Assembly: GCA_024278555.1 (NCBI GenBank)
Contig: JAJRSX010000203.1
Coordinates: 1-54,316, forward strand
DNA length: 54,316 nt
From: a bacterium
GTDB lineage: Bacteria > CG2-30-53-67 > CG2-30-70-394
Reading direction: 5' to 3'
This document shows, one piece after another, positions 26,403-50,110 of the stretch. How positions within the stretch are numbered: position 1 is the stretch's first letter; each line of letters begins with the position of its first letter. The position numbers and the translations under genes were made by a program. A model generated the notes under the pieces. It saw only the letters and a program-made list of their open reading frames with translations. It ran no database searches and had not been told where the DNA came from.

Positions 26403-26732
26403 GGGGGGGGCTCGCTTCGCTCGCGCGGGGGTAGCGAACAGCTTTCAACTCTCAGAGGATCAGCGGAAACAAGATGGGGTTACCAGACCGTAGGGTCGGC
26501 TTCAGCCGACCGACGCCGTCATCTCAAGAAATGCCGATTGCTCCTAGCTCATGACCGACGATGGGCAATCGGAAAGAGGGCAAGATTCCGGGGGGAGGGG
26601 ATACCACCAACAGGGTCGAGGGAGTCACGAGGTGATCACGGTGCGAGCCTGGAGGGCGATTTCACCACAGAGACACAGAGGGCACGGAGAACTGCAAAGG
26701 AGAGGTGCGTTCCTCCTCTTGGGCCTCGCGAC
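26403..26732 (-). repeat. Dispersed palindromic repeat, prophage-interrupted copy, left half
   Basis: 26454-26732 is the reverse complement of 14500-14780, about 90% identical by eye. It includes the GAGGATCAGCGGAAA end, the palindrome GTCGGCTTCAGCCGAC (26499-26514) and the CACAGAGACACAGAGGGCAC arm (26667). The match stops exactly at the prophage edge and resumes at 50106. No gene is seen here. Confidence 0.85.
26728..26732 (+). repeat. Target-site duplication GCGAC, left copy
   Basis: GCGAC immediately precedes the prophage TG terminus and recurs immediately after its CA terminus. The empty repeat has GCAAC once at this place. Confidence 0.85.
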
Positions 26733-26785
26733 TGTAAGCGGCCAAGAAGTTTGCGAAGTTTGGACGGAAAGTTTGCGACAGGGTG
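26733..26785. other. Prophage terminus at the tail-gene end, with transposase-binding-like repeats
   Basis: The first 53 bp hold TTTGCGAAG (26752) and AAGTTTGCGAC (26770), two copies of a TTTGCGA motif about 18 bp apart. Repeated short sites inside the ends are usual for Mu-family transposase binding. gpD stops 57 bp from the edge, so almost nothing follows the tail genes. Confidence 0.6.
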
Positions 26786-26789
26786 GGGA

Positions 26790-27782
26790 TCAGGGTCGGG
26801 CATCGGCGGCGAGGGTGGTGGTGTAGCCAGAGGAGGTGATTTTGTGGGTGGCGGTGCGGGTCGTCCAGGGGCCGTCGAGACCGTCGCGGAACCCTGTGAG
26901 ATTGAGCGGGGTCTCGGCGAGGATCGTGGGGTCGCCCGGCAAAGTCAGTTCCAGCTCGCCGGCGCCGCGGGTGAGCTGGTCCAGTTTGGACCGTGCGGCC
27001 GCGAGGGCCTGGGCTGCGTCAGGATAGAGGTGGGTGAGCCGGTAAATGGGCTCGCCTTTACCGGCGGTTTTAGAGCGAGTCAACGCCGCTTGAAGATCCC
27101 GCCACTGGGCGATGACCTGCCGGAACTTGCCGCGCTTGGTGAGGGTGCCACGCCATGAGGTGACGTCCGCGGGCCGCAGCGTCACCGGCGCGATGGTCTG
27201 CCCCGAGACACTCCCCGACCGCCCCCTAGGGGTGAAGATGAGGTGCCCACCCGCTGGTTTGGCGACTGCCCCATATTGGGTCCCGAGGCGGGTGAGCAGG
27301 TTCATGTCGGACTCGTCGACCTGGTCGAGATGGGGAATCGGCACGCCGTCGTAGTCGATCGCCACGGATGGCTGATATCCATGTTCGGCGGCGATGCTGC
27401 GCACCAGGTCGCCAAGGGTGGTTTGGTGCCAGGCGCGGGTCTTTTGGGTCTGGAGGGTGGTGAAGTGGAGCGAGGGGTCAAAGGCGGCGGCGCGGGCACG
27501 GATCGTGAGGGCGGCGGGCGGCCCCTCGATCTCCAGCTCGTCGACGACATAGATGCCCATCTGTTGGAGCTTACCCGCATATCCGATCGAGACCTCCAGC
27601 TCGGCCCCGGTACGGGGGAGCGCAATGCCGCCCCCGGTCTCGCGCCGGCGGTCGTCGATGCGGATGGTGAGCCGATCGTTTTGCCGCCCCGCCTCGTCCA
27701 CCACCGTCAGGGACAGCAGATGCGTGCGGATCACCTCGGTGATGACCTGGGCGTCGGCGACGATGCGGAAGGCGGGGGGCAT
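26790..27782 (-). CDS. D: Phage late-control / tail protein D (P2 gpD family)
   Basis: The 330-residue protein starts MPPAFRIVADAQ. GpD-family proteins form the hub that joins the baseplate spike to the tail tube. Visible features are an N-terminal barrel (DRLTIRIDDRR, ELEVSIGYAG), VDESDMNLLTRLGTQYGAVAKPAGG, a hallmark of the P2 gpD/Mu gp44 fold, and HKITSSGYTTTLAAD at the end. It is the last gene of the late operon. The frame is open further upstream, but only antisense to gpX. Confidence 0.9.
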   Translation of the reverse strand: MPPAFRIVADAQVITEVIRTHLLSLTVVDEAGRQNDRLTIRIDDRRRETGGGIALPRTGAELEVSIGYAGKLQQMGIYVVDELEIEGPPAALTIRARAAAFDPSLHFTTLQTQKTRAWHQTTLGDLVRSIAAEHGYQPSVAIDYDGVPIPHLDQVDESDMNLLTRLGTQYGAVAKPAGGHLIFTPRGRSGSVSGQTIAPVTLRPADVTSWRGTLTKRGKFRQVIAQWRDLQAALTRSKTAGKGEPIYRLTHLYPDAAQALAAARSKLDQLTRGAGELELTLPGDPTILAETPLNLTGFRDGLDGPWTTRTATHKITSSGYTTTLAADARP

Positions 27783-27786
27783 GGCG

Positions 27787-27996
27787 TCAGTCCCACAGGT
27801 GTACCACGCAGGTGGTGTCCGCCGTGTCCGGTAGATCCGGCAGCTCGATGAGTAACCCCGCGGGTAGCTCCGGACCGAGCTCCGCGAGGTGGGGGTTGGA
27901 GTCGAGGACATCCACGATGGCCGACTCGTGTCCGTAGTGGCGCCAGCAGATGCGGTCGAGCACATCCCCCGCGAGGGTGCGGTAGTGGACGCTCAC
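27787..27996 (-). CDS. X: Phage tail protein X (LysM-like)
   Basis: The 69-residue protein with GTG start begins VSVHYRTLAGDVLDRICWRHYG and has the LysM-like NPHLAELGPELPAGLLIELP of the P2 gpX family. The GTG overlaps the gpU stop (GTGA), giving translational coupling. Confidence 0.85.
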   Translation of the reverse strand: MSVHYRTLAGDVLDRICWRHYGHESAIVDVLDSNPHLAELGPELPAGLLIELPDLPDTADTTCVVHLWD

Positions 27997-28400
27997 GCCC
28001 CGTCCTCCCCGTAGTAGGCGAGGGCGAGACGGAAGGCGACCTTGCGTGGCGCCCCACCGGGCAGGTGCGCGGATTGGGTCTCCTCGATGCGCTCGATGAC
28101 CCACCGGCCGAGCACCGTGCCCTTTCGCGCGTCGGCTGAGGCGACCAGCATCAGGGGGGCACCCTTCCCCGCCTCGGTGCGCATGGTATCGAGCTGACCG
28201 AGGCCACCTCGATAGTGGGGGTAAATGATGCCATCTAGCTCGACAGTCTGGTTACCAGGGCCAACGTATTGGCGGGCCGGCTCCCGTCCGATCCGGTCTT
28301 GGGCCGGCCACCGGTACTCGTTTACCCGGCGCAGCGTCTGGTAGGCGGCGGTGTCGACAGAGAAGCGGTAACCACCGAGGGCGAGCATCACCTCAGCCAT
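27993..28400 (-). CDS. U: Phage tail protein U (P2 gpU family)
   Basis: The 135-residue protein has MLALGGYRFSVDTAAYQTL and YRWPAQDRIGREPARQYVGP, then GKGAPLMLVASADARKGTVLGRWVIERI, a clear gpU pattern. GpU is the tail terminator in P2-like phages. It overlaps the tape-measure gene by 8 bp. Confidence 0.9.
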   Translation of the reverse strand: MAEVMLALGGYRFSVDTAAYQTLRRVNEYRWPAQDRIGREPARQYVGPGNQTVELDGIIYPHYRGGLGQLDTMRTEAGKGAPLMLVASADARKGTVLGRWVIERIEETQSAHLPGGAPRKVAFRLALAYYGEDGA

Positions 28401-30762
28401 CGCCGAGCCCCTCGTGTTGGCGGGCCATCAGGCGGGCGACTTCCTCCGCCAAGGCGTGCACGTCCTGCCCGGGGCGTGCGGTGATGTGGAAGGTGTTGGT
28501 CTGGTGGTAGGTGATGGTGTGTCCCGCGGGGGCGGGCTCCGGAGGGCGGGGCGGCGCGGCAGAGGGCGACGCTCCGGCCGCGAGATCGGAGGGGACTTGC
28601 GCCACCGGCGTCGCCGGCCGTACCACGGGAGGGGGCACCGCCACCGGCGCCGCCGGCCGTACCCGTGGGGTGGCCGGCGGCGGCGGGACCGGCGCGGCCG
28701 GTGGGAGTGCAGCCTGACCGGGGAGTGGGGCCGTGGCGATGACGGCGCCGAGGGTGGCGGCGGCCGCGGTTTGCTGGAAACGGTGGGTCACGGTTTTGCC
28801 ACCACCGCCACCGAACCACTTCGCCACCGCCGCAAACGGCGCGGAGATCTTCTCCCACATGCCCCCGACCCAGCCGGCAAACTTCGCCCATACCGCCTTG
28901 ATCGGCTCCCAGATGCGCAACAGGAATCCCTTCACCTTGGACCAGTTGGCGATGATCAGCCCGGCCCCGAGGGCGATCACGGCGATCGCCGCGCCGATCG
29001 GGTTGGCGGCGATCGCCACTCCCAGCATACGCAGGCCGGCGACCACAGCCGGGATGGCGCCGCGCGCCAGCCCCAGCAAGGTCCCGCCGAAGGACTTGAG
29101 CCCGCCGCCGATGGCCAGGGCGCGGGTCCGCACCGCGGTGATCAAGGCCACCGCATTGAAGCCGCTCATCCGTTCGGTCGTCCAAGTAATCATCCGCCCT
29201 ACACCTGCCGCGGTGTTCCCGGCCATGGTCCACGCATCGGAGAACAGCGTCCCGACGTACTTGCTCACCATGGCGGCGGCGGTGAATCCGGCAAACCCCA
29301 GGGTCGCGCCTCCCAGCACCATGCCGAGGGCGGGGACCTTTGCCACGGCGATTCCCACCCACCGGGCGACCGCAGCGATGGGGGTGAGGACGGCGTTCAG
29401 GGCTGGCACCAAGGTGCCGGCGAGGAGGTTACCGACGATCTTCAGATTTTGGCCGAGCGTTCGGAGCCGGCCTCCGGTGGAGGCCAGAAAGTCCTGATAG
29501 GCGGTGTCCACCACGCCACGGGAGCCGTCGGCCACCGCCCGATAGCCCTCCGTCAACCCCGCCATATTGCCCAGCAGCAGGGCCACGGCGCTGCCCTCGT
29601 CGCCGAACGCCTTTTGCAGGGCGGCGGCACGAGCATCCACGTCGGTGCCATAGGCGGCGTCGAGGGCCTCTTTCAGATGGCCGAGGGTGCCCACCAGGTC
29701 CATCTCCCCGGCGGCGTTGCGCTCGATGGTGAAGCCGAACTGCTGCGACGCCCGACCCAACTGGCGCAGGACGGCGTTGAAGGCGGTGCCGGCGCGGCCG
29801 CCCATCAGACCGGCGGTGTTGAAGCTGCCCAAGGTGGCGGCGGTCTGTTCGAGCGAGACCTTGTACTTGATCGCCGCCGCCGCCCCCTCCTTGAACGACT
29901 CGCCGAGCTGGCCAAAGTCGCGAATCTGGAACTTGAATTGGGTCTTGGTGAGGACGTCGCCGATACGCGCCAGCTTGTCGGTGGCGGTGCCGGCGATCGC
30001 CGCCCCCAGGTTATTGAAGACCACCCCCACCACTTCGCCTACCTGGGCGGCCGAGCCCTGGGTGACGGTGGCCACCTTGTGGACAATCTCGGTGCCGAGG
30101 CGTGCGGTGGCTGCATCCAGGCCGGCGGAGTCCAGGGCGTACTCAATATTGAGCACCTCGACCTCCGAGGCGAGCGAATCGCGGGCGAAGTCGAGGGCGT
30201 GGCGGCGGGAGGCTTTTAGCGCCGCGGCGGTATCCTTGGCATTGATCACCGTGCGGAGACGCACCTGCGCATCCTGCACCTCGATGGCGCCGCCGAAGAT
30301 GCGGCTCGCCGCGTAGGCCGCCCCGAGGGTGCCGATCGCCTTGGCGTGCAGCTCGCTACGGACCTGGGCGTTGCGCTCGCGGGTCGCCACCCGCGCCAGC
30401 GATGCCTCGGCGCGGGTGGCGGAGCGCTCCAGCCGGCGATGCTGGCGCACCACGTCGCCAATGGAGACCCCGTAGGCCCGGGCCGCCTGCTTGGCGTCCC
30501 GGTAGCGACGCTCCACCTCCGCAATCCCCGCGTTCAGGCGGGAGGACGAGCGGCCGAGGGTGGCCTGTTTCGCCTTGAGCCCCTCCAGGGTTGACCTATA
30601 CTTGATGACGTCGGCGGCCAGGGTGGCGCCGAGGCGGTGGCGCTTGGCCGTCTCCCCGATCTTGACGATCCGCTGTTCGGTGGAGCGGAACGCCTTCCCC
30701 AGGGTCTCGGAGACCGCGCCGCCGATGACGATCGAGAGTGCGAGGGACTTACCGAAGGGCAT
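28393..30762 (-). CDS. T: Tail tape-measure protein (P2 gpT family)
   Basis: The 789-residue protein sets tail length. It has an N-terminal coiled coil (residues 20-160), a TP901-like core with FNTAGLMGGRAGTAFNAVLRQLGRA, hydrophobic helices between about 440 and 640, and a proline/alanine-rich tail before HTITYHQTNTFHITARPGQD. The length is normal, and no frameshift or stop interrupts it. Confidence 0.92.
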   Translation of the reverse strand: MPFGKSLALSIVIGGAVSETLGKAFRSTEQRIVKIGETAKRHRLGATLAADVIKYRSTLEGLKAKQATLGRSSSRLNAGIAEVERRYRDAKQAARAYGVSIGDVVRQHRRLERSATRAEASLARVATRERNAQVRSELHAKAIGTLGAAYAASRIFGGAIEVQDAQVRLRTVINAKDTAAALKASRRHALDFARDSLASEVEVLNIEYALDSAGLDAATARLGTEIVHKVATVTQGSAAQVGEVVGVVFNNLGAAIAGTATDKLARIGDVLTKTQFKFQIRDFGQLGESFKEGAAAAIKYKVSLEQTAATLGSFNTAGLMGGRAGTAFNAVLRQLGRASQQFGFTIERNAAGEMDLVGTLGHLKEALDAAYGTDVDARAAALQKAFGDEGSAVALLLGNMAGLTEGYRAVADGSRGVVDTAYQDFLASTGGRLRTLGQNLKIVGNLLAGTLVPALNAVLTPIAAVARWVGIAVAKVPALGMVLGGATLGFAGFTAAAMVSKYVGTLFSDAWTMAGNTAAGVGRMITWTTERMSGFNAVALITAVRTRALAIGGGLKSFGGTLLGLARGAIPAVVAGLRMLGVAIAANPIGAAIAVIALGAGLIIANWSKVKGFLLRIWEPIKAVWAKFAGWVGGMWEKISAPFAAVAKWFGGGGGKTVTHRFQQTAAAATLGAVIATAPLPGQAALPPAAPVPPPPATPRVRPAAPVAVPPPVVRPATPVAQVPSDLAAGASPSAAPPRPPEPAPAGHTITYHQTNTFHITARPGQDVHALAEEVARLMARQHEGLGDG

Positions 30763-30982: not shown

Positions 30983-31312
30983 GCTCCAGCAGCTCGGTCA
31001 GCCCCCACCCGGTGTGCTGAGCGAGGAGGATGCAGGCGCGTCGGGCGTCCTCGGCCCGGAGGACAAAAAAGAGGCGTACACCTTCTGGAGGCGCAGGTAG
31101 TCCACCAGGTCGAGGGCCTCGATCACCGCCGGCGCCACCTCCGCCAGGTTGGCGAACAGGGTGACCTCTTGCGCGGCCGACGATGCGGAACCCTTTTCGG
31201 CGGCGAGCATGTCCCGCACCTTGGGGCGACGCAGGGTGATGTGGTCGGTCGCCACCCCCTCCACCGTCACCGGGTAGGTCAGCTTCACGGTCGTGTCATC
31301 GATATTCCTCAC
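30906..31312 (-). CDS. E': Tail assembly chaperone, extended form E+E' made by -1 frameshift
   Basis: Translation starts as gpE, slips by -1 on TTTTTTG at 31070-31064 after Leu83, and continues 52 residues in the -1 frame (VLRAEDARRACILLAQ, then WGLTELLELTGEELMQWISA), giving 135 residues. P2 makes 91 and 142 residue products at the same heptamer in the same place. The extended form is thought to cap the tape-measure protein during assembly, and the T gene is next. The join is predicted from sequence only. Confidence 0.8.
30998..31312 (-). CDS. E: Phage tail assembly chaperone gpE
   Basis: The 104-residue protein starts MRNIDDTTVKLTYPVTVEGV. The strand-rich N-terminus with ITLRRPKVRDMLAAEK and the helical LVDYLRLQKVYASFL fit the P2 gpE/Mu gp41 tail chaperone family. 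The ATG overlaps the previous stop (ATGA). The last 21 residues after the slippery site are low-complexity, as expected of the non-shifted form. Confidence 0.85.
   Translation of the reverse strand: MRNIDDTTVKLTYPVTVEGVATDHITLRRPKVRDMLAAEKGSASSAAQEVTLFANLAEVAPAVIEALDLVDYLRLQKVYASFLSSGPRTPDAPASSSLSTPGGG
31064..31070 (-). promoter_or_regulatory. Programmed -1 ribosomal frameshift heptamer TTTTTTG
   Basis: In the zero frame the codons are TCT TTT TTG, giving the X-XXY-YYZ pattern T-TTT-TTG. It is the heptamer established for the P2 FETUD operon, at the equivalent position. Confidence 0.75.
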
Positions 31313-31581: not shown

Positions 31582-32085
31582 TCAGATGCCCAACGCGGCG
31601 CGGGTAGAGGCGAGGCGGTCGACGCCGTCGATCATGCGGACCATGTTCTCCACGTCGATCTCGTGGACCACGCGGCCGCCGTGGGTCAGCTTGTAGTAGC
31701 GCACCGCCACCGTCCCCTTCAGCTTCGCCAGGTCGCCCGCCTTCCACGTGCCGGGGTCCAGCTCGGTGAGGCTCCCGGAGAGGTTCACCACCACCGGGGT
31801 GACGGTGCCGTCCTCGCTCTCCACCGCGCCGCGGAAGGTGAGAGGCACGAGGTTCCCCGGCGCCAGGCCGAAGCGGGCGAGCACCTCGGCATCGAAGGCG
31901 GTGAGGGTGAAGGTCGCCTCCATTTCCTCCATCCCCATGTCGATCTTCACCGGGGCATCCATGCCGCCGGCGCGGTAGTCCTCGGTCTTCACCGTCAGCT
32001 TCGGGGGGGTCAGATCCTCCACCCGGCCGGCGTAGCCGTAGCCATCGACGGACAGGGTGAGGTTCTTCAACAGGTCGGTAATCAT
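31582..32085 (-). CDS. FII: Phage major tail tube protein
   Basis: The 167-residue protein starts MITDLLKNLTLSVDGYGYAG and contains KIDMGMEEMEATFTL and VRYYKLTHGGRVVHEIDVEN, a diagnostic P2 FII ending. It polymerises into the inner tube of the contractile tail, and the sheath gene is immediately upstream. Confidence 0.93.
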   Translation of the reverse strand: MITDLLKNLTLSVDGYGYAGRVEDLTPPKLTVKTEDYRAGGMDAPVKIDMGMEEMEATFTLTAFDAEVLARFGLAPGNLVPLTFRGAVESEDGTVTPVVVNLSGSLTELDPGTWKAGDLAKLKGTVAVRYYKLTHGGRVVHEIDVENMVRMIDGVDRLASTRAALGI

Positions 32086-32143: not shown

Positions 32144-33325
32144 TTACGCCGGGAGGATCTCCTCGATGTAGTCGTTCACCAGGTGCGACTGGAAGGTGAT
32201 GTGCTCGGCCGGGTACGGCGGGGTGAAATCGAAGTCGAAGTAGACCTGACCCGCCTGGATGGCGGCGGCGGTGTTCAGATCCGGGTCGGCGTAGGCGGTT
32301 CCCCCGAGGATGGCGCCCTGGGCCACCAGGTGGCGGAGGTAGCCGTTGACCCCCTCCAGCACGTCGGCGATGTAGGTCTTGGTGATGTTGCGATCCACAG
32401 CCCACAGATGCGCCCGCAGGAGCGACTCGTTGATCATGTCGGCGGTGCGCCGCACCGACAGGTACATCCACTTGGGATCGACGGCCGACGTGCCGCGGTT
32501 GCCCCAGAGGCGGAAGCCGTCCTTCTGGATGATCGTGGCAACGTCGTTCTCGTTGAGGACGTTGGCCCGCGCGGTGGCATCGCCGAGTGTGAAGTCGACC
32601 GGCCGGGTAGTGCCGGTGATACCGTAGATCGGGCGGTTCGAGGGGCTCCACCAGAAGCCACGCTCCGCGTCCGACTTGGCGATCACCCCGGCCACCCGCG
32701 CCGATGGCGGCTCGGTGACCTCGCTGCTGGTGGCGGTGTCCCACACCCGCACCCACGGATCCACCAGATAGACGCGGGGGTTGGCGATGACGGCCTTGTA
32801 GCCGATGCCCGCTATATCGTTGATGTTGAGCCCGTCGGCGATGATCACCGCCCGCAGCCGATCGGCGATCGACTGCATCTCGCCGACCACGGGCGCCGCG
32901 TTGGTGAAGCCCGGAGCGATGAGGATCTTGGGGGCGACCCCGAGCACGCTCTCGGCCGCCGCCAGGGCATGAACGCCGGTATAGGCGCCGATGGCGGCAT
33001 CAACCCCGCCGATCACGTTGGTCTGGGTGGCGGCGGCGTCCACCCCCTCGGCCACGCGGACCACCACCACCAGGGCGCCGGCCTGATCGAAGATACCGTC
33101 CAGGGCCGCCGGCAGGGTGCCGAGGCCGGTGCCCACGGTGTCGAGCTTTGCCGCCTCGACCCGCGAGCCGGCCACCAGGACCGGGGTATCCAGTGGAAAG
33201 GCGGTGGCATCGGCGTCCGGCGCGGTACCGACGATGCCGATGACCGATGAGCGGACGGTCTGGATCGGCCGGGGGCCGGCGTCGATCTCGAGGACTTCTA
33301 CGCCGTGGAGGAAAGAGGCGGGCAT
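32144..33325 (-). CDS. FI: Phage tail sheath protein
   Basis: The 393-residue protein matches the P2 FI family: FLHGVEVLEIDAGPRPI, RSSVIGIVGTAPDAD, the C-terminal DGFRLWGNRGTSAVDPKWMY and YFDFDFTPPYPAEHITFQSH. It proves a contractile (myovirus) tail. The length equals that of P2 FI (about 396). Confidence 0.95.
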   Translation of the reverse strand: MPASFLHGVEVLEIDAGPRPIQTVRSSVIGIVGTAPDADATAFPLDTPVLVAGSRVEAAKLDTVGTGLGTLPAALDGIFDQAGALVVVVRVAEGVDAAATQTNVIGGVDAAIGAYTGVHALAAAESVLGVAPKILIAPGFTNAAPVVGEMQSIADRLRAVIIADGLNINDIAGIGYKAVIANPRVYLVDPWVRVWDTATSSEVTEPPSARVAGVIAKSDAERGFWWSPSNRPIYGITGTTRPVDFTLGDATARANVLNENDVATIIQKDGFRLWGNRGTSAVDPKWMYLSVRRTADMINESLLRAHLWAVDRNITKTYIADVLEGVNGYLRHLVAQGAILGGTAYADPDLNTAAAIQAGQVYFDFDFTPPYPAEHITFQSHLVNDYIEEILPA

Positions 33326-33349: not shown

Positions 33350-34702
33350 TTAGAGCCAATAGGTCCGGAGAAACAGGCTATGGGGAGCGATGAGATCCTC
33401 CAGTGCCCCGGCGAGGTTATAGAGGCGCAGCCGGACGCTCCGATCGGAAAGGGTCTCCGTCGTGACGATGAGCGGCTGGGTACCCTTGGGAACGGCGATG
33501 ACCTCCCGGTCTGCATGGTGGGCGGAGAAGCTCACATCGAACACGCCGACCGGCTCGCCTGCCGCGCGGGCGATCGTCGTGATCCCGTTGGACGGGGATT
33601 GCAGGATGCCGGCGTAGGTCATGCTCCCCCATTCCACGGCCGCGGCATGGTCGAGTTGATCCCCGGTGACGCTTGCGTCCGCCAAATGGTCGGCACGAAC
33701 AACGACATTGCCTTGCCGCTCATAGTAGGCGCGGACATCCGTGATGGGGGTACCGTCCAGCACCGAGGCGTCCAGGAACACACCGTAATCGCTCCCCGCC
33801 GATACAATGGCCACCGGCGTCGCCGTGGCCACTCCCCCGCTACCCTGGATGAACTCGATCGCCCGTGCCGCGCCGATGGATGCCTCGATCACCCGCTTGG
33901 CGATCGCGCCTATGGTGAAGTAGTTCGGGGCGACATAGGTCGCCGGCCCATACGACACCGGTGACAACACCGGCACCATCCCGTCTACCTGCACCCGAGA
34001 CAGCTCCACCTTGGCGATCGTGGAGCCGTCCAGCACATCGGCATCCAGATACACCTGCGTCTCCCCACCCGAGAAGAGCGTGGCGGACACCTCGGCGGTC
34101 CGGACCCCGGACGCCTGGGTAATCCGCACCATCCGACGCAGCTGGATCTGGCCGGTCACATCCCCGGCGATCAATAGGCGGCTGGGCAGATCGGAGATGG
34201 CGGAGAGACCGCTCTCCATCCACTGCGGGTCCATGGCCCCCAGGGCGCCATCCACATACGACCGCGAGGCCAACACGATCGCCGGATCGATCTGGAGGGT
34301 GACGGTGGAGGCGTTGCTCACCTGGAGGATGACCCGCAGGTAGAGGTCGGAGGCGGCGCCCTCGGCGAGCTGCGGTTTATAGGTCCCGGGCACCGAGCCG
34401 ATGGCGATCAGGTTGCCGCCGGTGTCGAAGACCCCCACCTCGCGGGCCGTCCAGCCGCCCACCGCCTGGGGGATGATCGCCTCGATGACGATCCAGTTGG
34501 GGTTGGCTGGATCGGTGGTGATCTGGTTGATCGGCGCCCGATAAACCTCGTGGACCAGGGCCGTGGCCGACTCGGCCGGGTTGACCGGCACGCCGCCGCC
34601 ATCCCCCACCGCCACCTCGGTCAGGTCGACGGTGGTGCCCAGGGCCTGGGCGTTGGCCAGGGCGGCGGCGCCGGTGGTGGTGAGGAGGGTGTAGTAGGAC
34701 AC
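33350..34702 (-). CDS. H: Phage tail fibre protein (P2 gpH-like)
   Basis: The 450-residue protein with GTG start begins VSYYTLLTTTGAAALANAQA, the conserved N-terminal attachment domain of P2-type fibres. AVGGWTAREVGVFDTGGNLI is the other hallmark. The rest is beta-strand-rich and probably trimeric. The frame is open 25 codons further upstream without a start near a Shine-Dalgarno sequence. No chaperone gene follows directly; the 180-residue gene at 39.1 kb may serve. Confidence 0.82.
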   Translation of the reverse strand: MSYYTLLTTTGAAALANAQALGTTVDLTEVAVGDGGGVPVNPAESATALVHEVYRAPINQITTDPANPNWIVIEAIIPQAVGGWTAREVGVFDTGGNLIAIGSVPGTYKPQLAEGAASDLYLRVILQVSNASTVTLQIDPAIVLASRSYVDGALGAMDPQWMESGLSAISDLPSRLLIAGDVTGQIQLRRMVRITQASGVRTAEVSATLFSGGETQVYLDADVLDGSTIAKVELSRVQVDGMVPVLSPVSYGPATYVAPNYFTIGAIAKRVIEASIGAARAIEFIQGSGGVATATPVAIVSAGSDYGVFLDASVLDGTPITDVRAYYERQGNVVVRADHLADASVTGDQLDHAAAVEWGSMTYAGILQSPSNGITTIARAAGEPVGVFDVSFSAHHADREVIAVPKGTQPLIVTTETLSDRSVRLRLYNLAGALEDLIAPHSLFLRTYWL

Positions 34703-34792
34703 GGTGATGGGGTCGGGAGGAAAGCGCGGTCTTGCTTGTTCTGTTCTACGCCCGCGCTCCGGAGCCGTGAGACTCAAGGGGTTGGGTTTTCG

Positions 34793-39068: not shown

Positions 39069-39078
39069 GGCGACCCTC

Positions 39079-40498: not shown

Positions 40499-40555
40499 GG
40501 GGGGCGCGCTATCGCTCGCGTAGAAAGTAGAAAGTAGAAACTAGAAAGGGGGTGG

Positions 40556-40762: not shown

Positions 40763-40793
40763 GGTGTCAGCTCCAATGAATCGAGGGGGCGAT

Positions 40794-40822
40794 GGGATCG
40801 GGGGCATGGCCCCCTCCTACCG
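40794..40822. repeat. Host-type REP half element inside the prophage
   Basis: Inverted, this reads CCGGTAGGAGGGGGCCATGC, then CCCCGATCCC, identical over more than 25 bp to the left end of the REPs at 19.37 and 19.49 kb. It lies 3 bp past the capsid stop codon, between the capsid and HI1506-like genes. Confidence 0.75.
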
Positions 40823-41948: not shown

Positions 41949-42344
41949 TTAGCCGATGCGGACCCAGACGCCTTCCGCGTCCACGTCGACGATGGTGCCG
42001 ACCGCCGAGGAGCCGGCGGAGGCCTCGGTGACCGACTGGTCGTCGACGATGTAGGCGGGGTCGCCGATGTTGGCGCGGGTGATGGCGCCGCCGTTGGCTA
42101 AGGGGAAGACCCCCTTGCGCACCGCCACGGAGATGTCCCCGTCGGCGCCGCCGCTGTTGTCGGCCGCCTCCTGGGCGACCCCGCGGCTGATCAGCCCGGC
42201 GGCGGCGGTGGCCGGGGCGGCGTTGCCGGCGGCATCGAGCACCACCAGGGCGCCGGCGTGGAAGACGGCCCCGGCGGCAACGGGATCGACGAAGTCGTCC
42301 CCGATACGCTCGGGGGTTGCACGGTCTTCGGTAAGAGCGGCCAT
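41949..42344 (-). CDS. Phage head decoration-like protein
   Basis: The 131-residue protein has PVAAGAVFHAGALVVLDAAG, KGVFPLANGGAITRANIGDP and VTEASAGSSAVGTIVDVD. This pattern of small beta-rich proteins occurs between the protease and capsid genes of Mu-like phages and probably reflects capsid cement proteins. Confidence 0.72.
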   Translation of the reverse strand: MAALTEDRATPERIGDDFVDPVAAGAVFHAGALVVLDAAGNAAPATAAAGLISRGVAQEAADNSGGADGDISVAVRKGVFPLANGGAITRANIGDPAYIVDDQSVTEASAGSSAVGTIVDVDAEGVWVRIG

Positions 42345-42383: not shown

Positions 42384-43421
42384 TTAAGCGGCGGCGAGGC
42401 CCGCCTTGTAGGTCTTGGAATCGAGCCCCATGGCGCGGCAGATGGCGGTCTGCTGGGCGTTCAGGCCATCGGCCCCCTCCCCCGTATCGGGGTCGGCGCC
42501 GCCGCTCTGGGAGCTCCGGAGCGCCGCGATGGGCTGGGCGGATTCGACGTAGCTGGTGAGCGCGGCGAGGTTGGTGGTGCCCAGCTCCCGTGCCCACCCC
42601 TCTTGGGCCGGCAGCAGGCGGCCGTCGGCCAACGCCGCGGCGACCAGGGTGTCGACCTCGCGGCCGGTGGACTCGGCGCGCAGGGCGGCGATCTCGGTGC
42701 GCAGCTCCTCCACGACCGTCACCGGCGCGTACTTCGCCGGGTCCGGGGTGGCGGTGGCCGCCTTGGCGGCGGCGACCGCGGCCTGGGCCGTGTCGATCTG
42801 GGTCCGCAGGGCGGCGATGGCCGCCACCGCGTCGTCGATGCCGGCGCCCTCGGTCAGGTCGAGGGCTTCCTTCAGTGCCTTGTCCACATCGTTCTCCAAA
42901 GGGGGTTGGGGGTCGTGCAGGGTTCGGCGGGCGGCGGCGCGCGCCACCACCTCGCTCATGCCGTCGATCGCCGGGGCGTTGGTGAGGCCGGCGTTGAGCA
43001 CGTCGAGGACCTCGCCGGACTCGGGCAGGTAGGAGAAGACCGCCGAGATGTAGCGGTACTCGGCCGCGTCGATGGCTGCGGTGGCCTTCGGCGTCCACTG
43101 CACGCCGGTGGCGAACAGCCCCTCGCCGTCGCGCCACTGAAGGCCGCTGAACCATCCGGCCGCCGGCGCCGGCTGGCCGTTCCATTCGGTGTTCAGGGTC
43201 TGGTGCTCATAGTCGATCACCCGCCGGTTGACCCGGCGAGCGCCGCGTTTGATCACCAAGGCGGCGATCTCGGCATCGAGCCGCCACGCCGCCGCGTCCC
43301 GCGGCCGGCCGTCCTCGGCCCGGAACTCCCCCGCGGGCAAGAGCTGCACCTCCGTCACCGGAGTGGCCCCCACCTCGAATGCACATGCCACCATGCCGAT
43401 GGCTTGCGACCGCGTTGTCAT
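42384..43421 (-). CDS. Mu-like gpI protease/scaffold protein
   Basis: The 345-residue protein has an N-terminal protease part (VTEVQLLPAGEFRAEDGRP, RRVIDYEHQTLNTEWNGQPA, AAEYRYISAVFSYLPESGEV, ALTNAPAIDGM-type block). A helical scaffold tail follows (about 190-345). As in Mu it matures the head and its C-terminal part acts as scaffold. Confidence 0.9.
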   Translation of the reverse strand: MTTRSQAIGMVACAFEVGATPVTEVQLLPAGEFRAEDGRPRDAAAWRLDAEIAALVIKRGARRVNRRVIDYEHQTLNTEWNGQPAPAAGWFSGLQWRDGEGLFATGVQWTPKATAAIDAAEYRYISAVFSYLPESGEVLDVLNAGLTNAPAIDGMSEVVARAAARRTLHDPQPPLENDVDKALKEALDLTEGAGIDDAVAAIAALRTQIDTAQAAVAAAKAATATPDPAKYAPVTVVEELRTEIAALRAESTGREVDTLVAAALADGRLLPAQEGWARELGTTNLAALTSYVESAQPIAALRSSQSGGADPDTGEGADGLNAQQTAICRAMGLDSKTYKAGLAAA

Positions 43422-43758: not shown

Positions 43759-44289
43759 TCACTTTTCCAGGGCGCGGGCGAGGTGGTCGGCGAGGATGGC
43801 GAGGATCTCCTCGCGGTCGGGCGCCGACGCCCCGAGGAAGGGGCGGGCCGGGACCGTCGAACCGGGGTGGCGGACCGAGGCCACCGGGTGGCGCCCGCCG
43901 GGCCAGGCCAGCGCCTTGGCCCGCTTCGGGCGGATGGTGTGGGCGGCCGTCAGGCCGCCGAGCTGGTGGATGGCGCCGTACAGCACGTTGGTGCCCACCT
44001 CCACCGCGCCGGCGGTGGCGAGCCAGGTGATGGAGTCGCGCAGGCGGCCGGACTCGGTGAGGGTCTTGGGGTTCTTCTTCACCGCCTTGCGCGCCGCGCT
44101 CACCGGCTTCCACTTCTGCTCATCGGGGCCGCGCTGGTCGCGGAAGCGCCCCTCGGTGGACCGCCGCAGGTGCTCGCCGATGTCCTGGTAGGCGGGGGTG
44201 AGGTCGTGGGCGGCGAGGGAGAGGCGCTTGAGGGCGTCGCGGATCGCCCGTTCTTGGTGGGCGTCGAGGCTGATGGTGAGGGTGGCCAT
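43759..44289 (-). CDS. Mu-like virion morphogenesis protein gpG
   Basis: The 176-residue protein has LRRSTEGRFRDQRGPDEQKW, LTESGRLRDSITWLATAGAV, VGTNVLYGAIHQLGG and PARPFLGASAPDREEILAIL, all hallmarks of the Mu gpG/phage tail-completion family. Confidence 0.92.
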   Translation of the reverse strand: MATLTISLDAHQERAIRDALKRLSLAAHDLTPAYQDIGEHLRRSTEGRFRDQRGPDEQKWKPVSAARKAVKKNPKTLTESGRLRDSITWLATAGAVEVGTNVLYGAIHQLGGLTAAHTIRPKRAKALAWPGGRHPVASVRHPGSTVPARPFLGASAPDREEILAILADHLARALEK

Positions 44290-44384: not shown

Positions 44385-45629
44385 CTACTCTCTTCCATAG
44401 AGGAGTAGTCCGCGCCGGGCATTTTGGGCGGTATTGAGCTTGGAGGTGGGGATCCACGTCCACGCCTCCAGGAGTCCACGGGTGGCCTGGGCGACGAGCA
44501 GCATCCCTCGGGTCTTGTCGAGATCAAGCAACTTGATGAAGCGCTGGCGGAGCACCACCTTGCCGGTGCCCTTGTGGCGCTCGAAGGTCTGCCACACCTC
44601 GTAGGGGTCGGTGAGGGTCTCTTCCAGGAAGGGGAGGTAGGGGGTGCGGTCCAGCGGCAGGTGGGCGGCGAGGGTCTCGGCGTTGACCAGGGTGGTGTAA
44701 CTCCACCCCTTCGCCTCAAGGGTGAAGGTTCGCTCCTCGCCGCCGAGCTGCTCGCGCAGGCGGGCCGCCGTCTCCGTCTGGGTGGCGGCGGGCCGGATCG
44801 CCTTGGCCTTGGGCTTGTCCAGGGGGATGCGCTCGGGCCGGTGGTGGCTCTGCCGGCTCCCGGGGGTGAGCGGCTCCCAGGCGGCGGCGCCCTGGTGCTG
44901 CCACGCACCCATGGCACGCTCGGAGAGCGGCCGCCCCCAGGCCGCCTCGCCGACGTTGTAGGCCCAGCCGGGGTCGATGCCGTTGGGGATGGTGTGGGTC
45001 CGGCCGGTCTGCCGGTCCTTCCAGCGATAGGTGCCGTCGTCCGGGGCGGTGTCGGGTCCCTGCTTGCCGCTGTTCTTGAGCTGGCGCTCGGAGCGGGCGA
45101 AGGTTCGGCATCGGCACCCCCAGCCGTTCGGGGTCCCGTGGGTCTTCCACCACGGGTCGTCCGCCTTCAGCACCAGGCCGTCCCAGGCGAGGTGCAGCGG
45201 CCGGGGGCGGACCGAGTCGCCGTGGCGGTATTCCCAGTAGGGGTTGCGCTCCAAAAAGGCCGGGTCGGTCATCTGCCGGTAGCGGCCGGCCGCATACGCG
45301 GTGCGCAGGTTGGTCTCGTAGATGGTGCGGGTGCGCCAGGCGCGACCCTTCTTGGAACCCTCCCCGGTCCAGCCGGTCCAGCCCCGGCGGGCGACGGTGG
45401 CCTCGAAGTCGTCGCGGAACTGTTCCAGGGTGGTGCCGTCCGCGATCGCCCCGTCCACCGCCTGGCGGAGGTCGGCCAGGAGATCCTCCTGCATGGCGCC
45501 GGCGACCACGAAGGCGCGGGCGTGCATCCCCTCCCAGAGGTCGGTCCACCGCTCGGTAGGGAGATCGACCTTCTGGCGGAAGAAGGTGATGGCCTCGGGG
45601 AAGGGGAGAGCGCGGTGGTCTACGGCCAT
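44385..45629 (-). CDS. Mu-like minor head protein gpF with C-terminal PBECR-type nuclease domain
   Basis: The 414-residue protein is bipartite. Residues 1-230 are the gpF/SPP1-gp7 head morphogenesis domain (ALPFPEAITFFRQKVDLPTE, RTIYETNLRTAYAAGRYRQM, GCRCR). After a linker, residues about 300-414 resemble the PBECR2 phage Barnase/EndoU-like domain (SYTTLVNAETLAAHLPLDRT, PYEVWQTFERHKGTGKVVLR, RFIKLLDLD, WTWIPTSKLNTAQNARRGLL). Such domains ride in the capsid as candidate injected RNases. The tail domain is complete here. Confidence 0.85.
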   Translation of the reverse strand: MAVDHRALPFPEAITFFRQKVDLPTERWTDLWEGMHARAFVVAGAMQEDLLADLRQAVDGAIADGTTLEQFRDDFEATVARRGWTGWTGEGSKKGRAWRTRTIYETNLRTAYAAGRYRQMTDPAFLERNPYWEYRHGDSVRPRPLHLAWDGLVLKADDPWWKTHGTPNGWGCRCRTFARSERQLKNSGKQGPDTAPDDGTYRWKDRQTGRTHTIPNGIDPGWAYNVGEAAWGRPLSERAMGAWQHQGAAAWEPLTPGSRQSHHRPERIPLDKPKAKAIRPAATQTETAARLREQLGGEERTFTLEAKGWSYTTLVNAETLAAHLPLDRTPYLPFLEETLTDPYEVWQTFERHKGTGKVVLRQRFIKLLDLDKTRGMLLVAQATRGLLEAWTWIPTSKLNTAQNARRGLLLYGRE

Positions 45630-45928
45630 GGGCTCGCCGTGTTGGTGGCAGGGGGCGGATCCGCCCCCTCATCCAGGCCCTCTCCCACGAGGGGAGAGGG
45701 CGCTTCTTCCCGGAGCGCCGCCGCGAGCAGCCCGGCATAGACGGCGGCCTTCTCGGCGTCGCGCGCCGCTGCCGCGCCGCCCTCCTTGTAGTTGAGCCGG
45801 CAGAGGTATTTGAGGTTGTTGCCCAGGAGGAAGCCGCGGTACTGCTCGTCGGTGAGCTTGGCGCGCAGGATGTCGAGGGTCTCGATACCGCCGGCGTCGT
45901 AGTAGGCGGCGTTGGGGTCGTGGCTCAT
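45620..45928 (-). CDS. DUF3310 protein with repeat-derived C-terminus
   Basis: The 102-residue protein carries the DUF3310 core YYDAGGIETLDILRAKLTDE, GFLLGNNLKYLCRLNYKEG and DAEKAAVYAGLL. The last 30 residues (PSPLVGEGLDEGADPPPA...) are encoded by a host-type GCCCTCTCCCacgaGGGGAGAGGGC hairpin (45670-45694) and look acquired. It overlaps the gpF start by 10 bp and the portal stop by 4. Confidence 0.75.
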   Translation of the reverse strand: MSHDPNAAYYDAGGIETLDILRAKLTDEQYRGFLLGNNLKYLCRLNYKEGGAAAARDAEKAAVYAGLLAAALREEAPSPLVGEGLDEGADPPPATNTASPWP

Positions 45929-47535
45929 CGGCCCTCCCCCACCTCGAAACGGCCCGCGAGGTCGGCGGCGGTGAAGGCTTGTTGCAAGGTGGCGGCGAGG
46001 TCGGAGACCCCCATCTCCGGGTAGAGGGCGAGCAGCCCGTCGCGGAGCTCGTCCATCGACCGGGCGGTGGCGACCAGGCGGCGGACCGGGGCGAGGAGCC
46101 CATCCATGGCGCTCGCGGCCGCCTCGTCCAATTGGTCGGCGTAGTGGTCGGCGGTGTCGGGGTCGGGATCCCCGGCCCGGAGGGCGGCGCAGTGGGGGCA
46201 GGCTCCCCGGAGGGCCGGATTCATCCGGCCCACGGCGTCCGGCGGGTGGAAACCCGCCCTACGGAGCGCGGCCTGGCCGAACGGCAGTGCCGGCCGCAGC
46301 ACCTCCTCGTCCTCCTGGGGCCTCGGGATGCGGAGCTTGTCGTGGGCGTAGTCGAGGGGGATCTCCATCCCCACCTCCACCAGCTTGGGAATGGCGTCGG
46401 CGTAGAGCTTGAGGTCCTCGGGCTCGCGGGTGTCGAAGCGGAAACGGGGGCCGCGGCCGGGATCGAGGCCGGGCAGGTTAAGGGTGGCCAGGGGCCACAC
46501 CAGGTCGCGGGTGAGGGTGGAGGCGAGTTGCAGGGCGTCGGCCACCAGGAGGTCGTGGCGCACCTCGTTGTGGACGGTACCCAGGGCGTTGGTGCTGGTC
46601 TTGCCGTCGGCCTGGCTGGTGAGCGTGCCGCCGAGGATGGCCTTCGACTGGGTGCGCTCACACCAGTCGATCATCGCCTGGAAGGGGTCGGAGCGGTCGG
46701 CCGCCGCCTCCTTGAAGTCGACCATCATCCCCTCGGGGATGATGCCGGCGGCGTTGTGGCCGAGGTTGACCACGGCGCGGAGCAGGGTGGCCTTTTCCTT
46801 GTCCGAGCTGCCCGGCGGGTAGGTCCCCAGCCGCAGGGGCAGGCCGTAGATCTCCAGGAACTCGGCCAGGTCGCGGACGCTGTAGTTCTTGAACAGGTAG
46901 GGCCAGGCGAGCACCCGGTGGAGGCCGGCGCGGCCCAGGTAGCCACTTTTCGCCTTGTGGATGTGGGTGATCCAGGAGAACGGCCGCAGCGCCTCGGTCT
47001 CCTGGCCCTTCCTGCGCAGGAGCAGCCGGTCGTGGTTTTCCTTGGCGACGGTGAACCAGCGCGGCGGCCGGTGGGTGATGTCCGACGGCACCCACTCGTT
47101 ACCGTCACGACCCCAGGTGATCTCCAGGCAGGAGAACCCCTTGCCGATGGCGTCGGCCATGTCCAGGAGGGTGTCTTCGAAGTTGGACAGGTCGCGGAGC
47201 ACGTCCCCCACCCACTCGGCCGCCGTCTCCTCGGTGGCGGTGGCGCCCCTGGGGGCCACCACCTCCCAGTCCAGCCCGAGGAGTGCCCGGCGGCGTTTGG
47301 ACAGCTCGGCGTAGATGTGGCCGTCCCTCTCCTCCATGTCGTCGAAGAGGTCGCATTGGGCGGTGAGGTCGCCGCGCTCGGCGTCGGTGAGGATGGAGGC
47401 GAGCTTGGCGGGGGTCAGCCCGCGGGCCGGGTGGTCGGCGAACTCCTTGTGGAGGTGGCCGAGCTTCGCGGTCTGGGCGGCTTGCAGGTCGCCGCTCTTC
47501 ACGGGGTGGCCGCGGTGGTCGAGGATCGTTGCCAT
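45925..47535 (-). CDS. Mu-like portal protein (gp29 / DUF935 family)
   Basis: The 536-residue portal forms the head vertex through which DNA passes. Its motifs include ARGLTPAKLASILTDAERGD, ERDGHIYAELSKRRRALLGL, DMADAIGKGFSCLEITWGRD and TQSKAILGGTLTSQADGKTS. The ATG at 47535 follows AGGAG, and an ATG 3 bp upstream is equivalent. Near residue 425-442 the frame reads through a host-type palindrome (46211-46263) as RRAGFHPPDAVGRMNPALRG, an in-frame insertion that leaves the rest intact. Confidence 0.92.
   Translation of the reverse strand: MATILDHRGHPVKSGDLQAAQTAKLGHLHKEFADHPARGLTPAKLASILTDAERGDLTAQCDLFDDMEERDGHIYAELSKRRRALLGLDWEVVAPRGATATEETAAEWVGDVLRDLSNFEDTLLDMADAIGKGFSCLEITWGRDGNEWVPSDITHRPPRWFTVAKENHDRLLLRRKGQETEALRPFSWITHIHKAKSGYLGRAGLHRVLAWPYLFKNYSVRDLAEFLEIYGLPLRLGTYPPGSSDKEKATLLRAVVNLGHNAAGIIPEGMMVDFKEAAADRSDPFQAMIDWCERTQSKAILGGTLTSQADGKTSTNALGTVHNEVRHDLLVADALQLASTLTRDLVWPLATLNLPGLDPGRGPRFRFDTREPEDLKLYADAIPKLVEVGMEIPLDYAHDKLRIPRPQEDEEVLRPALPFGQAALRRAGFHPPDAVGRMNPALRGACPHCAALRAGDPDPDTADHYADQLDEAAASAMDGLLAPVRRLVATARSMDELRDGLLALYPEMGVSDLAATLQQAFTAADLAGRFEVGEGR
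46211..46263. repeat. Host-type palindromic repeat read in frame inside the portal gene
   Basis: It contains GGCCGGATTCATCCGGCC and GGCGGGTGGAAACCCGCCC followed by TACGG. The 46232-46263 part (ACGGCGTC + GGCGGGTGGAAACCCGCC + CTACGG) has the same layout as the palindromes at 14711-14743 and 26493-26525 (ACGGCGTC + GTCGGCTGAAGCCGAC + CTACGG). Confidence 0.7.
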
Positions 47536-47762
47536 CATTTCTCCTGGGCGGTGTCCCCGGTGACGACGTGACCCCGGAAGAGGAGCGGCGGGCACCAGTG
47601 GAAACAGGGGTCCACCGGCACAAACGAGCGCAGCTCGCCGGAGGGCGCGAGCCACAGGAAGTGGGGGAACCAGCCGTAGTGGGAGCGCCGCACCACCAGG
47701 TAGCCGCCGAGGCGGAACCAGCGGGAGAGCGCCCAGAGCAGGCAGTTGGAGCGGGTCACCAT
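47535..47762 (-). CDS. Small aromatic-rich phage protein between terminase and portal
   Basis: The 75-residue protein, rich in Trp, Phe and Leu, starts MVTRSNCLLWALSRWFRLGG and contains PHFLWLAPSGELRSFVPVDP. The start overlaps the terminase stop and the stop overlaps the portal start. Small proteins of this look occur at this point in Mu-like phages; function unknown. Confidence 0.68.
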   Translation of the reverse strand: MVTRSNCLLWALSRWFRLGGYLVVRRSHYGWFPHFLWLAPSGELRSFVPVDPCFHWCPPLLFRGHVVTGDTAQEK

Positions 47763-47945
47763 GCGCCGACCTCCTGGGGCAGGAGATCGTCGACGTCGTC
47801 GTCAACGTCGGCCGAGCGGTCCCAGATGGAACCCTTGTCCGGGGCGGCGGTGTACTCGATGGGGGCGGGCCGCATCTCGGAGACGGCGTACTCGGCCATG
47901 GCCAGGGCGACCAACGCCGCGCCGTGCTCGCCCGGCTCACCGAGC
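47756..47945 (-). pseudogene. Terminase large subunit (gp28-like), C-terminal remnant
   Basis: Only about 55 residues make sense: GEHGAALVALAMAEYAVSEM, then RPAPIEYTAAPDKGSIWDRS and an acidic tail ending LLPQEVGAW. The first block resembles the HGDAxxALALAxYA motif of the nuclease domain at the end of Mu-like terminases, and the gene sits just before the portal as expected. Upstream of it the frame becomes antisense to the gp16-like remnant, so the first 400 or more residues are deleted. Confidence 0.65.
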
Positions 47946-48187
47946 GTGGCGCCCGCTTCGCCCCCAAGGACGCCCCGCAGATGGTCGCGAGCGACGAGCG
48001 GTGGCCGATGATGCACAAGGTCGAAGCGCTGCTGGCCGAGGCCCACCGGCCGTGGGCCTACGCCCACGCCGTGGCGAAGCACATGTTCAACCGCCCCCGG
48101 GTCGACCACCTCACCCCGCGCGACCTCCACAAGCTCATCGCCGCCCTCATGGCCGACGCCCGCCGCCACGGCCGGAGGGTGCAATGA
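47924..48187 (+). pseudogene. gp16-like (DUF1018) regulatory protein, C-terminal remnant
   Basis: The 87 residues include WPMMHKVEALLAEAHRPWAY, AHAVAKHMFNRPRVDHLTPR and DLHKLIAALMADARRHGR, the C-terminal half of Mu gp16-type proteins. Family members have roughly 140-190 residues, and the N-terminal half is missing. A GTG at 47924 might still start translation. The stop overlaps the next start (ATGA). Confidence 0.7.
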
Positions 48188-48684
48188 GCGGCCCGACCCA
48201 GGCGCAGGAGGTCCCCATCGAGGCGTCCGTGATCCCGCCCGTCGTGCCGGTGGAGATCACCGGCTGGGACGCCGCCGGCCCGCCCCCCACCACCTGTCCG
48301 CGCTGCCACACCTCCGGCCTCCTGCGCTGGGAGCGCCTCGACGACATCGGCCCCTACGCCCTCGCCGCCCGCTGCCTGTGCGGCCACCTCTCCTACCACC
48401 AAGCGGTCGTTCGGGTCGTCCGCCGATCGCCGGACGAAGAGCGAGCCATCGCCAGAAACCGGCGTCTCATCCCCATCGAGCGCTGCGACCTCTGCGGCAC
48501 CGACCGGGCCCGGATCCACGGCCTCTGTGCCCGCTGCGCCTCCCGCGAGCTCAAGCGCGGCACCAAGGACGCCGCCTACACCCCGTGGTACCAGCTCCCC
48601 GCAGCAGACCGCACCGAGACCGAGCGCGCCGCCCGCCTGATCCTCGGTACTCGAAATCACCGGCACCCCGAACCCCGAGGCTAA
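48184..48684 (+). CDS. Phage early-region zinc-finger-like protein
   Basis: The 166-residue protein has two cysteine clusters, CPRCHTSG...CLCGH (about 39-62) and CDLCGTDRARIHGLCARC (about 101-118), probably binding one or two zinc ions. I recognise no family. It lies between a gp16-like remnant and mor, so it belongs to the early operon and may bind nucleic acid. Confidence 0.68.
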   Translation: MSGPTQAQEVPIEASVIPPVVPVEITGWDAAGPPPTTCPRCHTSGLLRWERLDDIGPYALAARCLCGHLSYHQAVVRVVRRSPDEERAIARNRRLIPIERCDLCGTDRARIHGLCARCASRELKRGTKDAAYTPWYQLPAADRTETERAARLILGTRNHRHPEPRG

Positions 48685-48689
48685 CCCCC

Positions 48690-49124
48690 ATGGCCGAACA
48701 ACCTGACCTCCCCCTGGGCGCCATGGAATGCGACGTCGACGCCCTGCTCGCCCGCCTCGACGACCTCGACGCGGTGGCGCCGGCCGATGCGTGGCCGCAG
48801 ACCCTGGCGGACCTCTTCGACATCCTCACCGACCACTACACCCGCCGCCGCGATCACCCCGAGGCGGACGCCCGGCGCGAGGCCGAGGAGATCGTCATCC
48901 TCCTCGCCCACTGGCTCGGCGGCCGTCCGGTGTATCTGCCCCGCGACGACTCCCTCCGCCGCGCCCTGCGCGACGCGGACATCTACCGCGACTTCGGCCG
49001 GCGCTCCGCCGCCGAGCTCGCCCAGGCCCACCGCCTCACCCCCATGCAGATCTATCACATCATCCAGCGCCAACGGCGGCTCCATCAGGGACGAGTGCAG
49101 CGGGAGCTGTTTCCTGAGGAGTAG
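48690..49124 (+). CDS. mor: Mor-family transcription activator of phage middle/late genes
   Basis: In Mu, Mor activates the middle promoter and so turns on C and the late genes. This 144-residue protein matches the Mor/C family in its C-terminal half: AEEIVILLAHWLGGRPVYLP, DSLRRALRDADIYRDFGRRS and AAELAQAHRLTPMQIYHIIQ, the last being the helix-turn-helix. The ATG is preceded by an unusual C-run rather than a Shine-Dalgarno sequence. Because the early promoter and repressor are deleted, its control is unclear. Confidence 0.87.
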   Translation: MAEQPDLPLGAMECDVDALLARLDDLDAVAPADAWPQTLADLFDILTDHYTRRRDHPEADARREAEEIVILLAHWLGGRPVYLPRDDSLRRALRDADIYRDFGRRSAAELAQAHRLTPMQIYHIIQRQRRLHQGRVQRELFPEE

Positions 49125-49132
49125 CCGTAGCC

Positions 49133-49381
49133 ATGGCCCTCAACCTCTGGCTGGATAAGCTCCGCAAACAAATGCAGGCCGCCCACGACCGGGCGGAGGC
49201 GCGATACTACTACTTTCCGGACCTGAAGGATCGCGCCGCCCTCGGCAAGTGGCTGAAGAAGTCCGCGGCCCAGCACGAGCGCGAATCGCAAAGGCATCTC
49301 GATCGACTGTCTGAACTAAGAAGAGACATCTCTGACCTCGATTCCCTGATCTACTGGGAACGGCAGAGTAAGCGTCGGTGA
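49133..49381 (+). CDS. Hypothetical phage protein, coiled coil
   Basis: The 82-residue basic protein starts MALNLWLDKLRKQMQAAHDR. Its C-terminal half is a probable coiled coil (HERESQRHLDRLSELRRDIS). It follows mor by 8 bp and is the last recognisable gene before the prophage end. Confidence 0.6.
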   Translation: MALNLWLDKLRKQMQAAHDRAEARYYYFPDLKDRAALGKWLKKSAAQHERESQRHLDRLSELRRDISDLDSLIYWERQSKRR

Positions 49382-49687
49382 CGCTCCCTCCCCCGTGCCG
49401 GGGTCGGCGCCGCCGCTTTGGGGCGCTCGAAACCCGCATGGAGTCCCGGCTCCCAGCCGTGTCCATCGACAGCAGAACAGACCTGACATGTTGCAAATCT
49501 CGACGCACGCTACACATACCGAACCATTGCAGTCCTCCCCAAAATAGAAGGCCGCACGTCTACGTTGCGCCATGATTGAGCCGGAGGCGAGGCGGCCCCG
49601 TCGGAGAAGGAGGAGATTTGCTCCCTTGCCGCCACCGGCCATAGTGCTCGTGCCCTGGCTGAGCTGTACGGGTGTCATGCAACTGTA

Positions 49688-49796
49688 GCAGCGTACTTTT
49701 CTCCATTGGGGTTGTCGGCCTTTCGCCGCCGGTGCAGTTGCCGTTAAATCAGTGGGTTAGCGAGAAAAGTACGCTCCACCTAGAAAAGTACGCTGC
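49688..49796. repeat. AGAAAAGTACGCT repeats, one inverted and two direct
   Basis: GCAGCGTACTTTTCT (49688-49702) is the exact inverse of AGAAAAGTACGCTGC (49782-49796). A third copy, GAGAAAAGTACGCT, is at 49762-49775. Clustered sites of this kind suit repressor operators or transposase-binding sites (phage or IS21-like ends). The binding protein is unknown. Confidence 0.65.
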
Positions 49797-50079
49797 CGTA
49801 CCATTCGCCCGCCCAAAATCAGCCCCCTCCGAGTCCCCCCTCAATCCATGTGACAGCTAGTTTTTTTCTGTTTGCATAAGGGTTTGAACGCCGGTCACGG
49901 GCAATCTTGCAATAATATGCAAAGCCCCTCCGAAGCCCCTCCGAAGCCCATACCCCCCCAAATCACCGCTGCGTTCGTTGCGACACTCCCCCACGCCCCC
50001 GTCGAGCTCCCCACCCCCTAACCCCTTGCCCCTCAACACCTTTCCCACCAAATCCCACCATCCCCCACCCCATCCCGCC

Positions 50080-50105
50080 CTTCGCATCCATCCTGACCCC
50101 CCACA
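50080..50105 (-). other. Prophage terminus at the early-gene end
   Basis: Read inward on the minus strand it starts TGTGGGGGGTCAGGATGGAT and then GCGAAG, matching the other end at 18 of 26 positions with TGT and TGCGAAG in register. Confidence 0.8.
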
Positions 50106-50110
50106 GCGAC
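50106..50110 (+). repeat. Target-site duplication GCGAC, right copy
   Basis: It is identical to 26728-26732 and continues as GGAGCGCCACGG, exactly where the empty repeat at 14.5 kb continues after its GCAAC (read on the minus strand). Confidence 0.85.

Follow-up and report, generated by a model that had tools for sequence, protein, structure and literature searches.

A Mu-type transposable prophage with base-exact ends, Mu-like head genes and P2-like tail genes, probably disabled by one internal deletion

Results

The 54,316-nucleotide stretch of DNA analysed here (the window) contains the remnant of a Mu-type transposable phage, 23,373 bp long (26733-50105), whose ends are exact to the base; it is not a small complete phage. 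We consider it probable that the element is a transposable prophage with a Mu-like head and a P2-like tail, BcepMu-like in the sense of that gene content and not by alignment with BcepMu itself, which was disabled by one internal deletion. BcepMu is complete, at about 37 kb, and differs from the element in this respect.

Ends of the element and the empty site

The features that define the boundaries and the host locus are as follows.

25797-26402, minus strand: host V-type ATPase subunit D, downstream of the insertion (PF01813, 1.5e-17)
26613-26732, minus strand: host dispersed repeat, half left of the insertion
26728-26732, no strand: target-site duplication copy 1, GCGAC (sequence; confirmed by empty repeat copies)
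26733-26782, plus strand: phage right end, TGTAAG... (sequence)
50046-50105, minus strand: phage left end, TGTGGG... read inward (18/26 match to the right end)
50106-50110, no strand: target-site duplication copy 2, GCGAC (sequence; empty repeat copies)
50106-50215, minus strand: host dispersed repeat, half right of the insertion
50489-51928, minus strand: host V-type ATPase subunit B, upstream of the insertion (PF00006; 84% to a same-genus genome)
14409-14618, plus strand: uninterrupted copy of the same repeat, a paralogous empty site

The initial annotation had described a 5-bp duplication, TG...CA ends and an 18/26 terminal match, and all three were found: TGTAAG begins at 26733 and CCCACA finishes at 50105 (first bases TG, last bases CA), GCGAC stands on either side, and the terminal 26 nt are identical at 18 positions in inverted orientation. 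With the placement of the ends fixed, an end match of 18/26 was attained in 0.015% of composition shuffles. When nearby end placements were enumerated, 60 of 60,000 carried a 5-bp duplication, which is about the number given by chance; TG/CA ends occurred in only two of these 60, and the 26733/50105 pair was the best, with 18 end matches as against 14 or fewer. At the right end AAGTTTGCGA is present twice (26747 and 26769, 22 bp apart), and the two copies are candidate transposase-binding sites. The end of the gpD gene had also been placed 57 bp from the edge, and it does lie there, at 26790.

Just outside both phage ends is a longer inverted repeat, CACAGAGACACAGAGGGCAC (26666/50178), with the phage between its arms. 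We rejected it as the true outer edge of the element, because near-identical sequence (at most one mismatch) occurs at 44 sites in the 3.06-Mb assembly, which makes it a host repeat; a reversed control pattern had none. The dispersed repeat has arms of ~37 bp, of which CACAGAGACACAGAGGGCAC is the core, and a variable middle, and is possibly MITE- or REP-like; it was also seen at 12940-13052 and on contigs C14, C16, C25, C66, C124, C174, C207 and others.

These other copies of the struck repeat served as the empty site, so that the boundary could be proved without a sister strain. We joined 110 and 120 bp of flank through one GCGAC copy and aligned this query to the repeat copies; it crossed the junction without a gap both on contig C124 (225 bp, 96.0%) and at the window copy 14409-14618 (210 bp, 96.2%), and repeat copies on C174 (92.4%) and C207 (89.6%) likewise cross the junction. 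At the junction the copies on C124 and at 14409-14618 read GTGGCGCTCC-GTTGC-GAGGCCC, and the interrupted site in the window reads GTGGCGCTCC-GTCGC-[phage]-GTCGC-GAGGCCC. These alignments rule out a chance pairing of the termini and support the initial reading of a Mu-family insertion with base-exact ends; examined for boundaries other than those proposed, the paralogous copies of the target repeat agree with the proposed ones.

The matching locus lacks the insertion in the one same-genus genome compared (G001), where the V-ATPase B (84%) and D (65%) genes are separated by 118 bp that contain no phage and no repeat. Given empty sites that bear the repeat and a genome with neither repeat nor phage, the repeat arrived first and the phage second. 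The insertion puts ~24 kb between atpB and atpD, with both host genes and the phage late genes on the minus strand; in the V-type ATPase B/D region (25797-26402, 50489-53775) the repeat was the first to separate the two genes, and the phage the second. The host subunit D is 201 aa long and aligns with its G001 counterpart over 230 columns.

Late gene block

Most of the element is a block of minus-strand late genes running from the portal to gpD.

47535-47762, minus strand: small open frame between portal and terminase remnant
45925-47535, minus strand: portal, Mu gp29 (PF06074, 6e-112; 52% identical to the H71 portal)
45620-45928, minus strand: small protein with DUF3310 domain (PF11753, 5e-13)
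44385-45629, minus strand: Mu gpF-like minor head protein (phrog_220, 5e-95)
43759-44289, minus strand: Mu gpG-like virion morphogenesis protein (PF05069, 2e-32)
42384-43421, minus strand: Mu gpI-like head protease/scaffold (PF10123, 6e-100)
41949-42344, minus strand: virion structural protein, head module (phrog_1731, 2e-42)
40825-41703, minus strand: major head protein, Mu gpT (PF10124, 1e-124)
38577-40807, minus strand: series of small late genes, most without assigned function
38095-38595, minus strand: Mu gp36-like head-tail adaptor (PF07030, 1e-33)
37547-38095, minus strand: Mu gp37-like protein (PF08873, 4e-07)
36876-37550, minus strand: baseplate spike V, open frame to 37691, start inferred (PF04717, 4e-17; phrog_9992, 7e-49)
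36332-36667, minus strand: baseplate wedge W, gp25-like (phrog_43, 2e-39; PF04965, 1.5e-16)
35408-36292, minus strand: baseplate wedge J (phrog_4226, 5e-75; phrog_6, 1e-70)
34793-35404, minus strand: tail/baseplate protein I (phrog_48, 5e-64)
33350-34777, minus strand: tail fibre H (PF12571, 1e-58)
32144-33325, minus strand: tail sheath FI (phrog_23, 2e-121; PF04984, PF17482)
31582-32085, minus strand: tail tube FII, P2-type (PF04985, 8e-59)
30998-31312, minus strand: tail assembly chaperone E (PF10109, 3e-20)
28393-30762, minus strand: tail tape measure protein (phrog_28, 4e-70)
27993-28400, minus strand: P2 gpU-like tail protein (PF06995, 1e-34)
26790-27965, minus strand: gpD-like tail protein/baseplate hub (phrog_52, 6e-114; PF05954, 2.5e-11)

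The head module is Mu-like (gp29 portal, DUF3310 protein, gpF, gpG, gpI, structural protein, gpT, gp36, gp37) and the tail module P2-like (V, W, J, I, H, FI, FII, E, tape measure, U, D). The true start of the portal gene is not at 48018, which is the limit of a longer open frame. The closest tail relatives that we found are two short viral contigs, L183 (IMGVR_UViG_3300002308_000009) and L184, whose sheaths are 63-67% identical and which do not cover the ends; in the scan of viral contigs the Mor query gave no useful relative and the gpD query three short contigs.

We noticed no broken gene in the portal-to-gpD block, where the chosen open frames give 92% coverage, and with an intact mor gene this is what would be expected of a complete, functional and compact satellite, gene-transfer agent or tailocin-like device kept for its particles. 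That interpretation is nevertheless extremely improbable, given that terminase and gemA genes truncated at the junction described below point to loss and not design, that profile searches of the element's proteins recognised no lysis gene, that head genes would be of no use to a tailocin, and that there is no sign of conservation (a Mu portal was found in 0/7 nearest genomes).

Left-end region and the probable deletion junction

Between the portal and the left end the strand changes, and two gene remnants meet.

47756-47925, minus strand: large-terminase remnant, last ~55 codons, HG...PIEYTAAP...WD...GAW (alignment to nine TerL C-termini)
47909-47925, no strand: deletion junction, terL 3' part (minus) fused to gemA 3' part (plus)
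47909-48187, plus strand: gemA remnant, 3' half (phrog_286 profile 54-148/186, 4e-12; PF06252, 5e-06; alignment)
48184-48684, plus strand: Cys-rich, zinc-ribbon-like protein between gemA and mor, a weak domain assignment (CxxC motifs; no significant family in the profile search)
48690-49124, plus strand: Mor/C-type middle/late transcription activator (PF08765, 1.6e-21; phrog_532, 1.7e-32)
49133-49381, plus strand: small open frame
49382-50105, no strand: apparently non-coding left-terminal stretch with three AGCGTACTTTTC copies

The match between the remnant and the nine phage TerL C-termini begins only at the conserved HG of RHGD, and tblastn matches to it (39-56%) lie directly upstream of the portal in many relatives. 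On the plus strand, the GemA homology starts mid-gene (QRRAVLARL), so that gemA is present as its 3' half only, whereas mor is intact. The two homologies meet at 47909-47925, where ~15 bp are compatible with both genes; a short direct repeat may therefore have guided the deletion. The same ~15 bp could also be a microhomology at which a draft assembly of 211 contigs collapsed or wrongly joined the interior of an intact prophage, and a chimeric junction of this kind would count against a true deletion. We consider such an artefact very unlikely; had the missing segment been assembled apart, another contig with a recognisable terL or Mu transposase would be expected, and none was found with PF09299 and the H71 transposase as queries for the transposase and the H71 protein as query for terL.

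The three AGCGTACTTTTC copies, one direct and two inverted, are at 49690 (plus), 49764 (minus) and 49783 (minus), and this region (49690-49794) has no match elsewhere. They are possibly regulator or transposase sites, or the remnant of an insertion; as an IS or MITE the left-terminal 0.7 kb was rejected, with no second copy in the genome and no match in plasmids or phages. Forty bp near the left end (49383-49422) are 90% identical to 42472-42511, which lies within the prophage's own head protease gene.

Divergent layout and the size of the presumed missing segment

The phage most useful for comparison was Pseudomonas phage H71 (MH719190), which we take to be a transposable phage of the B3 type. 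As in the element, its left end carries Mor, a hypothetical protein and GemA, encoded on the other strand from the late genes; it also has the same head gene order (portal 52%, major capsid protein 59%) and TG at both ends read inward. After mor, the hypothetical gene and gemA, H71 continues with B, A, repressor, holin, endolysin, terminase and portal, and so keeps the whole region that the element lacks; its terL is annotated as hypothetical, and we recognised it by position and alignment. H71 has no match to the P2-like tail proteins of the element. The B3 target duplication is 6 bp (PMC8705779), as against 5 bp here.

The distance from mor to the portal is ~1.2 kb in the element, in contrast to 15-17 kb in relatives with the divergent layout. 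In four such prophages (those behind L049, L061, L079 and L096) mor and the portal are on opposite strands, with mor 15-17 kb upstream of the portal start, and the divergent-layout relatives hold transposase, repressor, lysis and terminase genes in between. In H71 the two junction points are 14,976 bp apart. Transposable phages are typically 36-39 kb (PMC8705779); at 23,373 bp the element is below this range, and with the H71 interval restored it would be within it (23,373 + 14,976 = 38,349 bp, or 38.3 kb). Size, content, orientation and junction are thus all accounted for by one deletion in a phage of divergent layout, such as B3/H71-type phages have, with an early operon carrying mor by the left end (here ~980 bp from it).

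Several observations weigh against this reading. We found no intact close relative, nor an intact relative that had both the divergent layout and a P2-like tail, and the lost content is drawn from distant phages (for H71, portal 52%, mor/gemA only 34-37%); in addition, mor is ~980 bp from the end as compared with 125 bp in H71. Many relatives identified by their portal have the Mu layout, with gemA and mor on the portal strand, and for an ancestor of that kind both an inversion and a deletion would be required. If gemA and terL held the breakpoints of the inversion, gemA 3' would likewise be joined to terL 3', and the remaining early region would then have been lost. We nonetheless regard this route as decidedly unlikely, as it involves two events and, after the second, mor must be the known gene nearest the end, whereas the divergent layout needs one event and is known in H71 and four other prophages.

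Other systems share parts of the arrangement. Mu has the head genes gpF, G, I, T, gp29, gp36 and gp37 and a 5-bp duplication, and the Mor/C-family activator of the element is 40% identical to Mu C; unlike the element, Mu is complete and has its early genes in the late direction and a Mu-type tail. Burkholderia phage KS10 is Mu-related with a genome partly inverted relative to Mu (PMC2628397), and like the element it has mor on the strand opposite to portal and terL; in contrast to the element, it is without TG...CA ends or insertion-site direct repeats, and its early genes interrupt the head module.

Missing functions and the order of events

The element contains neither transposase A nor MuB, and is therefore a defective remnant of a Mu-type phage and not a working member. 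Elsewhere in the assembly we found no MuA-type transposase with either PF09299 or the H71 transposase as query; in a control PF09299 detected a Mannheimia transposable phage and missed the H71 transposase, so the two queries are complementary, not exhaustive. Judged from its gene content, the element would most likely be unable to transpose, package or lyse alone. The initial annotation had taken the 23,373 bp for a complete phage footprint; this stands for the two ends, which are both present, and fails for the middle, from which transposase, MuB, repressor, lysis genes, terS, most of terL and the 5' half of gemA are gone. An unusually small complete phage is accordingly not supported.

The deletion could also have preceded the insertion, in which case a non-autonomous, mini-Mu-like derivative would have transposed in its 23.4-kb form with the transposase of a helper phage acting in trans. 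This would need only intact ends and a clean target duplication, both of which are present. We think it quite unlikely, as the right-end sequence is single-copy in this genome, the assembly has only one Mu portal, a Mu-type transposase was not found with either query, and the same facts are explained by a deletion after insertion. It is quite unlikely, too, that the element is a natural 23-kb mini-Mu, that is, a helper-mobilised, phage-derived satellite made up of ends, late activator and structural genes without transposase or working terminase.

Discussion

In the history that we favour, the ancestor would have been a Mu-type phage with a Mu-like head, a P2-like contractile tail and a divergent early operon in the H71-type layout. 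It would have transposed into a dispersed palindromic repeat between atpB and atpD, duplicating 5 bp; afterwards, a single deletion of ~15 kb would have joined mid-gemA to the 3' end of terL, taking with it transposase, MuB, repressor, lysis genes, terS, most of terL and half of gemA. What was left, both ends, apparently intact late genes and mor, would be a defective prophage.

Intact ends and a target duplication do not by themselves demonstrate a whole phage, and an internal deletion can make a transposable phage resemble a complete small element. In a bacterial lineage that has been sparsely sampled, the element provides a transposable prophage whose boundary is known to the base.
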